Below, piece after piece: positions 2,130 to 7,843 of a stretch of 45,313 nucleotides of DNA. Origin of the DNA: Candidatus Zambryskiibacteriota bacterium. GTDB lineage: Bacteria; Patescibacteriota; Minisyncoccia; Phycocordibacterales; Zambryskibacteraceae. The first letter of the stretch is position 1, and every line of letters begins with the position of its first letter. Where the stretch lies: NCBI GenBank assembly GCA_016180955.1, contig JACPAD010000003.1:1-45313 (forward strand), in the 5' to 3' direction. Below the pieces are notes generated by a model, which saw only the letters and a program-made list of their open reading frames with translations, was not told where the DNA came from and did not search any database. A program made the translations under genes and the position numbers.

Positions 2130-2159
2130 TTGACTTTTATATACTGCTCGTGCTATAAT
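2130..2159 (+). promoter_or_regulatory. Sigma70-like promoter for the DGR target gene
   Basis: TTGACT - 18 bp - TATAAT, about 80 bp upstream of the ATG at 2238. Confidence 0.6.
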
Positions 2160-2237
2160 TAAAACAGATTGAATGATTCGCTCAAGTTCCCGCATTTCGC
2201 CGGAGCTTAGAGTGAGTCAAAGATAAGGAGAAAAGTC

Positions 2238-2951
2238 ATGAGCAACAAGCCCGTGACCTTGGGCCAGGCGGTCCAGGTTCGCAAAATGGCGATCGAGAAG
2301 GGGGTTTCTCGTGACGTTTTCCAGACTCGTCTGGATGACGGCACGGTCGCCCGGTTCCTCAACTCCCTCAAGCCGTCTATTGGTGATCTGGCCCGCTGGG
2401 AAGCGAACTATAAGAAGCTCTTCGAGGAGAGGCCCGACCTCTCGCAGGTGCGGATTCCGGAGAAGCCCGAAGGCGTCGGGCCGGTGCGGCTTCTCGTTTG
2501 CGCGAAGGAACTCATCGAGTGGACAGAGAATCATCCGCTCGAGGGTGTTCAGGAAGCGCTGAAGAAGCACTTCCGGGGGTGGGAATACACGGATGACCTC
2601 GATGCCGACATCACGATGAACGACCGCGACCCGAGAAACGGCTCGTATGCCGTCTGGGTCAAGGATGTCCGCGAAGCTGATGAGGAATTCGCCAACAAGT
2701 CGGCGGGCGACCTCAAGGCCGAAGGCCACACCGGCATCACGGAGCTCGAGCGAGGCCTTCTCGAAGGAGATGTCTTCCTCGAGAAGGGCGAGCACCTGGA
2801 CCGCGAGAACGTGACGCTGTGCACAGGTTCTCGTCGTCGCGATGGCCTCGTGCCGAGCGGCCACTGGGGCGCCCGCGACGGGTTCGACGTCGACTGCTGC
2901 GACTCGGCGCGTCGCCTTCCGCGCCTCCGTTCCCGCAGGGTTTGGGCGTAG
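2238..2951 (+). CDS. DGR target (variable) protein with C-terminal VR, probable C-type-lectin-like variable domain
   Basis: 237 aa, SD-like ataaggag upstream. C-terminus ...GKGEHLDRENVTLCTGSRRRDGLVPSGHWGARDGFDVDCCDSARRLPRLRSRRVWA is encoded by the VR. No signal peptide or TM segment seen. Confidence 0.88.
   Translation: MSNKPVTLGQAVQVRKMAIEKGVSRDVFQTRLDDGTVARFLNSLKPSIGDLARWEANYKKLFEERPDLSQVRIPEKPEGVGPVRLLVCAKELIEWTENHPLEGVQEALKKHFRGWEYTDDLDADITMNDRDPRNGSYAVWVKDVREADEEFANKSAGDLKAEGHTGITELERGLLEGDVFLEKGEHLDRENVTLCTGSRRRDGLVPSGHWGARDGFDVDCCDSARRLPRLRSRRVWA
2825..2938 (+). repeat. DGR variable repeat (VR)
   Basis: 114-bp near-copy of 3191-3304. All 24 mismatches are at positions where the downstream copy has A (14 A>G, 8 A>C, 2 A>T). 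Confidence 0.95.
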
Positions 2952-2985
2952 ACTTACACCTTACACCTTGCATCTTGTAATCTTT

Positions 2986-3008
2986 GGCCGGCTCCTCGTG
3001 AGCCGGCC
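2986..3008 (+). terminator. GC-rich hairpin downstream of VR (terminator or retrohoming hairpin)
   Basis: GGCCGGCTC-CTCGT-GAGCCGGCC, perfect 9-bp stem followed by ATTTTT. Confidence 0.75.
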
Positions 3009-3190
3009 ATTTTTCATATAAAATAATTTGGCGGCTGTTAAATCAATTCCGCTTAAAGTTGAATAATGATTTGCCGCTTCAAAAACTGCTTGCCTTGCTT
3101 GACACAACGCCCGAGAGTGCCGCGGGAAATTCACAAATACAATAAGCCAATATTTCGGCTTACGAAGACACAGATGAAGCAGGGCAACGG

Positions 3191-3304
3191 AGGTTCTCGT
3201 AATCGCAATGGCAACGTGCCGAGCGGCAACTGGGACGCCAACGACAAGTTCAACGTCAACTACTACAACTCGACGAATCGCAATCCGAACCTCCGTTCCC
3301 GAAG
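3191..3304 (+). repeat. DGR template repeat (TR)
   Basis: AGGTTCTCGTAATCGCAATGGCAACGTGCCGAGCGGCAACTGG...AACCTCCGTTCCCGAAG. A-rich AAY codons in the frame equivalent to VR (SRNRNGNVPSGNWDANDKFNVNYYNSTNRNPNLRSR). Confidence 0.95.
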
Positions 3305-3307
3305 TTT

Positions 3308-3709
3308 TTAGAAAAGCTCTCCTTGCGGGGAGTTTTTCTTTGCGTAGTTTTCCCAGCCCAATGCCTCCTTGGATATTTCCTGGAGTTTTTCTTCAAAAAG
3401 TAAATAATAACTTTCTCTAATTATTTTCAGTTCAAATTCAACTCTGATAAGATATTTTAAAGTTTCTACGTTGATTCTTAATTCCCTAATGACTTCTCGT
3501 TTATCAGTTCTGTTTTCTAGTGACGCTCGTATAGCCAAGCTAAGCAAATTCAAACAAATTCTCTCTACTTCCGCATGCAAACCGAGCTTATCGCGTTTCG
3601 GCATCCTGCTTCCGACTTGATATATCTCTCTGTACAATGACTGGATATGGAAGATGATCGGAGCCACGTTTTTTCCGTCGGGGGGGGGTCCTGATAGGAG
3701 TATTTTCAA
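3308..3709 (-). CDS. avd: Avd-like accessory variability determinant (four-helix bundle)
   Basis: ...PIIFHIQSLYREIYQVGSRMPKRDKLGLHAEVERICLNLLSLAIRASLENRTDKREVIRELRINVETLKYLIRVEFELKIIRESYYLLFEEKLQEISKEALGWENYAKK resembles Avd/four-helix-bundle proteins; next to TR and RT. True start may be the GTG at 3667. Confidence 0.82.
   Translation of the reverse strand: MKILLSGPPPDGKNVAPIIFHIQSLYREIYQVGSRMPKRDKLGLHAEVERICLNLLSLAIRASLENRTDKREVIRELRINVETLKYLIRVEFELKIIRESYYLLFEEKLQEISKEALGWENYAKKNSPQGELF
3311..3338. terminator. Hairpin just after TR; possible bidirectional terminator between TR RNA and convergent avd
   Basis: GAAAAGCTCTCC-TTGC-GGGGAGTTTTTC, 12-bp stem including two G-U pairs, T-rich on both strands. 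Confidence 0.6.
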
Positions 3710-4724
3710 TCATATAGTTTCGGCTGAAAATTTATTTGCCGCTTGGCGAGTATTTAAGAAAGGCAAGACTAGAAAGCCTGATGTTATAGAATTTGCACAC
3801 AATCTAGAGAATAACATCTTTGCTCTTAGAGATGAATTGCTCGCGCACAACTGGAAGTGCGGAGGCTACAAAAAATTTTCTATAAAAGACCCTAAGCCCC
3901 GCACTATTCATAAGGCAACCGTGAGAGACAGGATTTTGTACCAAGCTGTCTATCAGATTTTGTATCCAATATTCGATAAAACTTTTATTTTTGATTCTTA
4001 TTCAAGCAGGAAAGACAAGGGGACTCACGCCGGAATAAAAAGGCTAAACATCTTCCTACGGAAGTTAAACATAAACTATACCAAACCGGTTTACGCGCTT
4101 AAATGCGATATCAAGAAATATTTTGACTCGATTGACCACGAAATTCTGATTTCGTTGATTAAAAATAAAGTAGAGTGTCTAAAAACGTTGGCTTTAATTG
4201 AGAAAATAATAAATTCTTTCCATAAAACTTCTGGCAAAGGCCTTCCGCTAGGAAACGTCACTAGCCAAGTTTTTGCCAACATTTACATGAACGGTTTTGA
4301 CTGGTATGTGAAAAATGAGCTTGGAATAAAGCATTACATCCGCTACAACGACGATTTCATTATTCTTTCTTCTAACAAAAATGAGTTAATTAAACTTATA
4401 CGATATATCGTATATTTCCTACTAAACAATTTAAAGCTCGAGTTGCATCCGGACAAGATAATTATCCGCAAACTTCATCAAGGCGTTGATTTCCTCGGAG
4501 CAGTTCTCTTGCCGCATAGAATGGCCCCCAGAACCAAGACAAAGAGACGCATTATTAAGAAATCGCTAAAAATGTTGAAAGAACTGGAGGCTGGCAAAAT
4601 AACAAAAGAAAAGTTCGGCCAATCAACGGTTTCTTATCTCGGACATTTAAGCCACACCAAATCGAGAGTTGTTCAGCATCTTCTGCATTCAATCAGGGCC
4701 AAAATGTGGAATTTGCCAGAATAA
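3654..4724 (+). CDS. DGR-type reverse transcriptase
   Basis: IHKATVRDRILYQAVYQILYPIFDKTFIFDSYSSRKDKGTHAGIKRL, KCDIKKYFDSIDHEIL, GKGLPLGNVTSQVFANIYMNGFD, YIRYNDDFIIL: RT domains with DGR/retron-like SQ motif and NDD catalytic box. Start codon uncertain (9-G tract at 3680-3688). Confidence 0.95.
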   Translation: MIGATFFPSGGGPDRSIFNHIVSAENLFAAWRVFKKGKTRKPDVIEFAHNLENNIFALRDELLAHNWKCGGYKKFSIKDPKPRTIHKATVRDRILYQAVYQILYPIFDKTFIFDSYSSRKDKGTHAGIKRLNIFLRKLNINYTKPVYALKCDIKKYFDSIDHEILISLIKNKVECLKTLALIEKIINSFHKTSGKGLPLGNVTSQVFANIYMNGFDWYVKNELGIKHYIRYNDDFIILSSNKNELIKLIRYIVYFLLNNLKLELHPDKIIIRKLHQGVDFLGAVLLPHRMAPRTKTKRRIIKKSLKMLKELEAGKITKEKFGQSTVSYLGHLSHTKSRVVQHLLHSIRAKMWNLPE

Positions 4725-5225: not shown

Positions 5226-5308
5226 GCGCGGGTGGCGAAATTGGTAGACGCACTACCTTGAGGTGGTAGCGCCCTTCGGGTGTGGGAGTTCAAATCTCCC
5301 CCCGCGCA
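5226..5308 (+). tRNA. tRNA-Leu (anticodon GAG)
   Basis: GCGCGGGTGGCGAAATTGGTAGACGCACTACCTTGAGGTGGTAGCGCCCTTCGGGTGTGGGAGTTCAAATCTCCCCCCGCGC; type II, loop TTGAGGT. Confidence 0.94.
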
Positions 5309-5984: not shown

Positions 5985-6056
5985 GGCGACTATAGTTTAG
6001 TGGCAGAACCCCAGCTTGTGGAGCTGGCCGCGAGAGTTCGATTCTCTCTAGTCGCC
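5985..6056 (+). tRNA. tRNA-His (anticodon GTG)
   Basis: GGCGACTATAGTTTAGTGGCAGAACCCCAGCTTGTGGAGCTGGCCGCGAGAGTTCGATTCTCTCTAGTCGCC with G-1:C73 extra pair; loop TTGTGGA. Confidence 0.94.
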
Positions 6057-6078: not shown

Positions 6079-6534
6079 ATGAAAAAGATAATTGTTTCCA
6101 TCGTAGTTTTGGCCGCACTGGGATTCGGTTACTGGACTATCTCGCCGCTTTTTATCGATAAAAAGGTTTCTGAAGAATTTCCTGTTCAAGAAGCAGGCAC
6201 TCTATCTGGAGAAGTCTTAGCCGGGGCATTTATCGGTTTTGACAGCATTCACTATGGCTCTGGAGATGTAAAAGTTATTAAGACCGAAGAAGGATACATT
6301 ATAAGATTTGAAGAAAATTTTAACGTGGCCAATGGCCCAGACCTCTATGTCGGGCTTGGAAAGGACGGCGAATATAAAGGAGAATCCCAGATTGCAAAAC
6401 TGAAGGGCAACATTGGTTCACAGAATTATGTTGTGCCGGAGGATATAAATCTCGAAAATTACAACGAAGTCTGGGTATGGTGCCGCGCTTTCTCGGTAGG
6501 GTTTGCTAAAGCGATTCTTAATCCTTCAATATAA
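6079..6534 (+). CDS. DM13 domain-containing membrane-anchored protein
   Basis: N-terminal TM, FIGFDSIHYGSGDVKVIK...GPDLYVGLG...KGNIGSQNYVVPEDINLENYNEVWVWCRAFSVGFAKAIL. Confidence 0.85.
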   Translation: MKKIIVSIVVLAALGFGYWTISPLFIDKKVSEEFPVQEAGTLSGEVLAGAFIGFDSIHYGSGDVKVIKTEEGYIIRFEENFNVANGPDLYVGLGKDGEYKGESQIAKLKGNIGSQNYVVPEDINLENYNEVWVWCRAFSVGFAKAILNPSI

Positions 6535-7054
6535 ATCTATAAGGTTTTTTGGCCCATTCGCCAGCGTAGGCGACACCTATTCTGGGAGTTCTAACAATTT
6601 TCACTTTGGCATGACGAAGCTCTAGCGAAGTCGGCTCTTCTACCCATAAGCCCGATTTTTTGCCAAGTTTTTTGCCGTTTAAATTTTTATCTATCTTAAA
6701 TTTCTTTGTCAGCCGTGCTGGACCGGAAACATTTTCCGTGCCGCGAATGAGCACTGCGGCGGGAAAATCTTTTTCTTCTGTCACGATGTTTAACATCCAG
6801 TGCATACCGTAGGTGAAATAAACATAAATCGTGCCGGCTTCTTGAAACATAATTTCATTTCGCGCTGTTTTGCCTCGAGAAGAATGGCAGGCTAAATCAT
6901 GCGAGCCAACATACGCCTCCACTTCCGTGATTTTCTCCTTCGCTACGATATAGCGCTTACGCGAAGTCGAATAATATCTTCGCACTAAATATTTACCCAA
7001 GAGCTCTTTGGCAACAATTAAAGTTTTTCTATTAAAAAATGAATTAGGCAGCAT
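6518..7054 (-). CDS. DNA-3-methyladenine glycosylase (AAG/MPG family)
   Basis: AKELLGKYLVRR...ITEVEAYVGSHDLACHSSRGKTARNEIMFQEAGTIYVYFTYGMHWMLNIVTE...PAAVLIRG. Confidence 0.94.
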   Translation of the reverse strand: MLPNSFFNRKTLIVAKELLGKYLVRRYYSTSRKRYIVAKEKITEVEAYVGSHDLACHSSRGKTARNEIMFQEAGTIYVYFTYGMHWMLNIVTEEKDFPAAVLIRGTENVSGPARLTKKFKIDKNLNGKKLGKKSGLWVEEPTSLELRHAKVKIVRTPRIGVAYAGEWAKKPYRFILKD

Positions 7055-7078
7055 TTTCCTGGATAGTATAATAAAGAA

Positions 7079-7843
7079 ATGAAATTTGAGCTCATCGCTT
7101 TCGATATTGACGGTACCTTGACCAGGAGTAAATCGCCGCTTGAGGACAACCCCCTGATTGATACGGATATGTCGGACTGGCTCAATAAGTTAATGGTTAA
7201 GTATAAAGTGGCGATAATATCCGGCGCCTCCTACAAGCAATTCCAGTCTCAAATTTTGGCCCATCTGACTAAAGACAGAGAGAAGCTCAAGAATCTCTAC
7301 CTTCTGCCGACCAACGGCACCGCCTTATGTGTTTACGGAAACGGTACGTGGCAGTGCCCGCCGGTCAACGCTCTGACCGACAGCGAAAAGAAGGAAATCT
7401 ATGCAGCTTTCGATAAAATGTTTGCCGAAGTGGGGTTTACGATTCCCGATAATGTTTACGGCGAGATAATCGAAGACCGCGGCTCGCAGATTACCTTCTC
7501 CGCATTTGGGCAGAATGCTCCCATTGAAATCAAAGAGGCGTGGGACAAGGACCACAGCAGGCGCGAGCAAATGGTCTTGGTGCTTAAAAAGTATTTGCCG
7601 GATTTCGCGGCACACATCGGCGGGGCCACTTCCATCGACGTAACAAGGCGGGGGATAGATAAAGCCTACGGCCTTCGCGAACTTCTAAAACACCTCAATC
7701 TGCCGAGGGAAAAATTGCTTTATGTCGGAGACGAGTTGTATACGGACGGCAACGACGCACCGGCCCTTAAGGTCGCGGGAGAATGCCGAGCGGTCAAGGG
7801 CCCGGAGGAGACTAAGAAAGTCATAATGGAACTTTTGGTGTAA
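7079..7843 (+). CDS. HAD-IIB family phosphatase / phosphomannomutase-like
   Basis: FDIDGTLTRSKSPL ... IISGASYKQFQSQI ... GGATSIDVTRRGIDKAYGLREL ... LLYVGDELYTDGNDAPAL. Confidence 0.85.
   Translation: MKFELIAFDIDGTLTRSKSPLEDNPLIDTDMSDWLNKLMVKYKVAIISGASYKQFQSQILAHLTKDREKLKNLYLLPTNGTALCVYGNGTWQCPPVNALTDSEKKEIYAAFDKMFAEVGFTIPDNVYGEIIEDRGSQITFSAFGQNAPIEIKEAWDKDHSRREQMVLVLKKYLPDFAAHIGGATSIDVTRRGIDKAYGLRELLKHLNLPREKLLYVGDELYTDGNDAPALKVAGECRAVKGPEETKKVIMELLV

Follow-up and report, generated by a model that had tools for sequence, protein, structure and literature searches.

A 45,313-nucleotide stretch of DNA from a Candidatus Zambryskiibacteriota bacterium (the window; positions 1 to 45,313 of contig JACPAD010000003.1, assembly GCA_016180955.1) carries a diversity-generating retroelement (DGR). 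Its parts begin with a plus-strand target gene of 237 amino acids (2238..2951), the 3′ end of which is the variable repeat (VR; 2825..2938, plus strand). A hairpin, the template repeat (TR; 3191..3304, plus strand, rich in AAC and AAT in the frame of the target) and a second hairpin follow, and then come avd on the opposite strand (3308..3713, minus) and the reverse transcriptase (RT) gene (3647..4724, plus). The avd and RT genes are arranged head-to-head with overlapping 5′ ends. Within the overlap of their 5′ coding regions lies a run of nine G residues (G9; 3680..3688, plus strand), which we propose is a contingency (phase-variation) tract.

Realignment of VR with TR yields 114 ungapped base pairs in which 24 of the 33 TR adenines differ (14 A>G, 8 A>C and 2 A>T) and none of the 81 C, G or T positions has changed (hypergeometric P=1.4e-17). 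This is exactly the adenine-only signature claimed in a preliminary description of this DNA, and an independent repeat search recovers the identical pair. As had also been claimed, the VR sits at the 3′ end of an open reading frame (ORF), namely 2238-2951(+), where it occupies the AAC frame. The RT was said to carry DGR-type motifs; GLPLGNVTSQ and YNDD are present, and ORF 3654-4724 matches RVT_1 (E=2e-21). When the RT profile was compared with solved structures as a check on its class, the best match was the RT of the 8ub7 series, which we take to be the complex of the Bordetella phage BPP-1 (E=1e-60), and group II intron RTs matched much less well (2e-32); furthermore, related loci carry TR/VR pairs. 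The predicted Avd is borne out by a Pfam bAvd score of 47 bits (cut-off 40). The same protein scores 46 bits with the NCBIfam model DivGenRetAVD, under its cut-off of 80, and a search of Avd against the PDB found no match. Because the adenine-only signature is accompanied by an RT, Avd and a target, the locus is a complete, genuine DGR of the Patescibacteria type. The parts given in the preliminary description thus stand, although it omitted the minus-strand position of avd, the G9 in the overlap, the layer of control proposed here and two other DGRs in the genome.

At the assembled G9, the primary start codons of both mutator genes are out of frame. Translation of the RT from its ATG at 3647 ends after 15 residues (MEDDRSHVFSVGGGS followed by a stop), and translation of avd from its ATG at 3713-3711 is garbled after MIENTPIRTPP. 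Both starts are in frame at G8. With one G fewer, the RT from ATG 3647 begins MEDDRSHVFSVGGGPDRSIFNHIVSAENLFAAW and Avd from ATG 3713 begins MIENTPIRTPPDGKNVAPIIFHIQSLYREIYQ, and each continues into its domain. The closest relative (L006; 72% RT identity) has G8 and reads MEDNRSHEISVGGGFNGSIFSHITSVENLFAAW for the RT and MTENTPVKAPPNGNFVAPIIFHIQSLYKEIYS for Avd, and the N-terminal peptides of both genes match between the two loci only in the G8 frame. At G9 the reading frame does suit two secondary starts, ATG 3654 for the RT and TTG 3709 for avd, which may leave a low level of expression instead of a complete shutdown. From these frames, the consensus cell of the assembly is probably OFF or low for the mutator. 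The earlier view that the system is or recently was active consequently finds support for the past only.

The genome (488 kb, 85% complete) holds three DGRs including that of the window. The RTs of the other two, on contig C6, are 50-52% identical to the window RT, and both systems share the layout of the window and have their own TR/VR pair. Each pair shows 13 adenine changes, alongside 1 other change in one pair and 2 in the other. Read in the same way, one of these DGRs (L002, G9) is in frame and the other (L003, G8) is out of frame. Runs of at least eight G or C residues occur in the whole genome only at the three DGR junctions.

The tract recurs at this position far beyond one genome. We assembled a first sample of 106 related loci and a replicate of 77 further loci from across the class, and in approximately three quarters of the two samples a simple repeat, G7-G13, (GA)n or (TTGG)n, is present at the avd/RT junction; the replicate alone contains 65 tracts. 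When public genomes were searched with RT similarity as the sole criterion, 46 of the 80 loci obtained had a G8-G13 run whose start lies 15 to 91 nt ahead of the RT core, and no run of C6+, A8+ or T8+ was found in that region. The remainder of the 80 loci (713 kb) contains only 12 runs of at least seven G or C. The opposite strand carries an avd homologue in 104 of the 106 loci of the first sample and in each of the 75 new loci that could be scored in the second, nearly always head-to-head with the RT gene and overlapping or adjoining its 5′ end. In viral DGRs used as a control, no tract accompanies avd on the RT strand (n=52), and one is found among those with divergent avd (n=15). On the RT tree the repeat is spread across deep branches and is clustered (14 changes, versus a shuffled mean of 37.6), and one group of 20 rows is without a repeat.

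Both the unit and the length of the repeat turn over. Loci without a G run can carry an alternative repeat at the junction, (GA)6.5-9.5 in four cases and (TTGG)10 in one, and two loci that are 83% identical across the junction (L024 and L026) nevertheless have G9 and (TTGG)10, respectively. Similarly, L055 and L071 are 92% identical and have GA tracts of 13 and 17 nt, and the window and L006 are 74% identical with G9 and G8. Tract length therefore differs among relatives while the flanks are conserved, as judged from the few close pairs at hand. L290 (G264:C108), which comes from the second sample, has roughly 12 GA units immediately next to a G9 run and possibly captures one repeat type in the course of replacing another.

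A very improbable explanation for these observations is that the DGR is an ordinary one, in which the G run is incidental, encodes a conserved Pro/Gly stretch or acts in ribosome binding or as a promoter element but does not switch. In its favour, Patescibacteria commonly carry DGRs (PMC8144416), and one clade of related loci functions without any repeat. Against it, such runs are almost absent elsewhere, other repeats substitute at the same point, and a single in-frame length serves two genes on opposite strands. Two specific roles were ruled out: a poly-G Shine-Dalgarno or promoter element, as the position varies and GA or TTGG repeats can take its place, and conserved Pro/Gly residues, since in most loci the run is out of frame and hence no peptide is conserved.

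The reading frames across the tract indicate what the repeat might do. Of 71 tract loci read on the avd strand, 70 have an ATG on the far side of the tract from which avd is open in one of the three frames, but only 18 have one in the frame as assembled; the replicate, with identical definitions, gives an ATG in some frame in 63 of 64. The RT has its own ATG after the tract in 27 loci and otherwise also starts before it. Where the starts lie within 60 nt, avd and the RT are opened by the same tract length in 34 of 39 loci (15.7 expected, P=4e-10), and within 90 nt the two agree in all 42 (18.3 expected, P=6e-17). The corresponding values in the replicate are 19/22 (P=1e-5) and 25/25 (P=5e-10), although all of these P values assume independent loci and related species are not fully independent. 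Moreover, the ATGs are in frame for both genes in 32 of 32 loci without a repeat versus 18 of 71 with one (Fisher P=4e-14), and in 7 of 10 versus 12 of 64 in the replicate. Read most simply, tract length is what puts the starts out of frame, and it does so for both genes together.

Out-of-frame tracts might instead be assembly errors or products of gene decay that are uninformative on control, an idea to which we give scarcely any credence. The data are metagenome assemblies, and this genome has damaged-looking targets, one out of frame with its VR (L004) and one with an in-frame TGA in both TR and VR (L005). However, well over a hundred assemblies show the runs at this same point, with hardly any at other positions, and the RT and Avd frames downstream of the tract are intact in nearly all loci. 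Furthermore, of the 90 related loci with sufficient sequence, 71 keep a clean TR/VR pair at a spacing like that in the window, with 1204 adenine mismatches versus 31 others. Because the pairs are this clean, we conclude that the systems work or worked recently.

We consider it likely, on the sequence evidence above, that the tract makes this a phase-variable contingency locus, with DGR hypermutation turned on and off by replication slippage. In this mechanism, TR RNA would be reverse-transcribed by the RT with Avd, adenines would be miscopied, and the resulting cDNA would overwrite the VR at the 3′ end of the target; we infer these retrohoming steps from the TR/VR signature and the known mechanism of BPP-1. 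The repeat would act from its place past the start codons of both avd and RT, in the short stretch where these divergent genes overlap. There, slipped-strand mispairing at replication would add or remove repeat units and thereby shift both frames at once, so that one length in every three would allow translation of the mutator (ON) and the other two would truncate it (OFF). Where the RT has its own ATG beyond the tract, Avd alone would be switched, and this should still stop the DGR because Avd is needed. In BPP-1, inactivation of either RT or Avd abolishes retrohoming (about 1e-9; PMC12875486), and thus loss of either protein should switch the mutator.

Length would also be expected to change within populations and, by doing so, to turn retrohoming on and off. 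Tracts of this kind should be more mutable where MutS is absent. No MutS was found in this genome (85% complete) nor in 17 scanned genomes of its genus, and among 41 genomes one passed the cut-off. With slightly less assurance than for the window itself, we think it probable that across Patescibacteria a repeat in the shared avd/RT start switches the DGR randomly and heritably, in which case most cells would be OFF with the current variant locked and rare ON cells would explore variants.

Several observations weigh against a replicative switch of this type. Each species is represented by one assembly, so length differences are seen between species and not inside one population. The ON state is found in 15 of 105 unambiguous pooled loci, which is below one third (P=2e-5). 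Loci with both starts before the tract are OFF mostly because they are one base too long (34 versus 12), a bias that random slippage alone does not predict. In addition, 3 of the 10 repeat-free loci in the replicate have no in-frame ATG, secondary starts such as those in the window may sustain some expression at OFF lengths, and in the tract loci of the first sample the run is always G and never C on the RT strand.

Two of these points are the strengths of a third alternative, in which the tract is a programmed slippage site for RNA polymerase or the ribosome. Avd and RT would then be produced at all times in a set proportion, and the number of repeat units in the DNA would not act as a heritable switch. 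In favour of this, the majority of genomes as assembled are out of frame, and loci with both starts before the tract mostly require one and the same correction, minus one base; long homopolymers can also cause transcriptional slippage. The low ON fraction thus suits a mutator that is kept mostly off, yet it is also the main support for slippage during expression. In contrast, (GA)n and (TTGG)n occupy the same point and are poor substrates for one-base slippage, and loci in which Avd only is switched need plus one or plus two bases about equally (25 and 19). In-frame lengths exist, and lengths range from 7 to 13 among relatives. On balance we regard programmed slippage as unlikely and prefer the contingency tract.

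The target protein belongs to a family that aligns among many related loci, and searches of Pfam and NCBIfam matched no family. Its structure model is confident (pLDDT 87) but gives only weak Foldseek hits (E above 0.4), among them several C-type lectin domains and one Treponema denticola variable protein, so that a lectin fold is no more than possible. A role in modulating host interaction has been suggested for DGRs of candidate phyla generally (PMC8867640). The target gene (2238-2951) has a GC content of 63%, compared with 38-40% for RT and avd and a window average of 46%. No further VR for the TR of the window was found in the genome.

Side observations were made on individual targets and genes elsewhere. 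At L005 (same genome, contig C6) the TR and VR are on the minus strand, near 6347-6495 and 6805-6953; the adenine of the TGA in the TR is unchanged in the VR, so the target now terminates within the VR, and mutation of that adenine could convert the stop to Trp or Cys. At L004, also on C6, the target (7057-7449, minus) ends on entering the VR (6955-7065), and its frame disagrees with the AAC frame of the TR/VR pair, the result of a frameshift or an assembly error. The VR of L203 (G037) contains an in-frame TAG derived from an AAG codon of the TR, a stop made by mutagenesis. The avd gene of L098 (4599-4993, minus) is split mid-gene into two frames, away from its GA tract. Many G8+ runs, some without a matching RT, are present in other genomes of the order (e.g. 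G038, G040, G041, G046 and G053), and these Patescibacteria may have further contingency loci.

The two hairpins of the window are also general features. A GC-rich hairpin followed by T5 lies 3′ of the VR (2985..3009, plus strand), and hairpins after the VR beat their own shuffle in 65 of 71 related loci. The second, terminator-like hairpin (3310..3339, no strand assigned) lies directly 3′ of the TR, between TR and the convergent avd, and its counterparts beat their own shuffle in 68 of 71. An Rfam scan of the first 9 kb of the window returned four tRNAs (1090-1172, 1278-1351, 5226-5308 and 5986-6056), which surround the DGR region, and no DGR RNA. The DGR is flanked by a pseudouridine synthase gene and rplS; as read from the sequence, rplS also adjoins the RT in L006.

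Contingency loci controlled by homopolymers or short tandem repeats are known in Neisseria, Haemophilus and Campylobacter. The tract described here resembles them in that the repeat lies in a 5′ coding region with the start codon before it, one length in three is in frame, and several repeat units are used. Those loci serve surface or metabolic genes, whereas here a single tract lies in the overlap of two divergent genes of a targeted mutator. One repeat governs two divergent genes together at hifA/hifB of Haemophilus influenzae (van Ham 1993, as cited in PMC11868660); control there is transcriptional via a combined promoter, whereas control in the window is proposed to be translational via the reading frame. 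A mutator phenotype switched by genetic change is also known from the SpyCI islands of Streptococcus pyogenes (PMC4129442). The SpyCI switch depends on island integration in mutL and affects mutation genome-wide, whereas repeat slippage in the window would control gene-targeted mutation.

Among DGRs, the window has in common with BPP-1 an RT, Avd, TR, VR at the 3′ end of the target, adenine-specific differences and a hairpin after the VR. In BPP-1, avd, TR and brt share a strand and form a single operon, in which a structured spacer separates TR from brt (PMC12875486). In contrast, the window has avd antisense to and overlapping the RT start, a hairpin directly after the TR and a simple repeat in the overlap. 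By host and target type, the window groups with clade 2 of Roux et al. 2021, which the accessible part of that survey describes as cellular DGRs of Patescibacteria (also called CPR) whose targets lack recognisable domains; that part makes no mention of a contingency repeat where avd and RT meet (PMC8144416). Within a literature coverage that did not extend to the surveys of Paul 2017 and Wu 2018, no relevant paper was found that ties DGRs to control by slipped-strand mispairing, homopolymers or phase variation. To our knowledge phase-variable control of a DGR is new; priority for the divergent avd layout is uncertain.

The restraint of DGR activity in nature has been called an exciting frontier (PMC12875486, a 2026 study), and it has been suggested that hypermutation is suppressed in stable conditions, since reactivation overwrites earlier variants (PMC8867640). 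The tract is a likely answer to the question of how targeted mutators are held in check, and the proposed switch is visible in sequence and readable from existing metagenomes. If true, it would explain why TR/VR signatures persist where the consensus genome cannot translate Avd from its ATG, and surveys that score avd as absent or broken in Patescibacteria DGRs may be seeing OFF states. A single locus would then combine contingency repeats with targeted retro-mutagenesis, each of them a classic form of evolvability.
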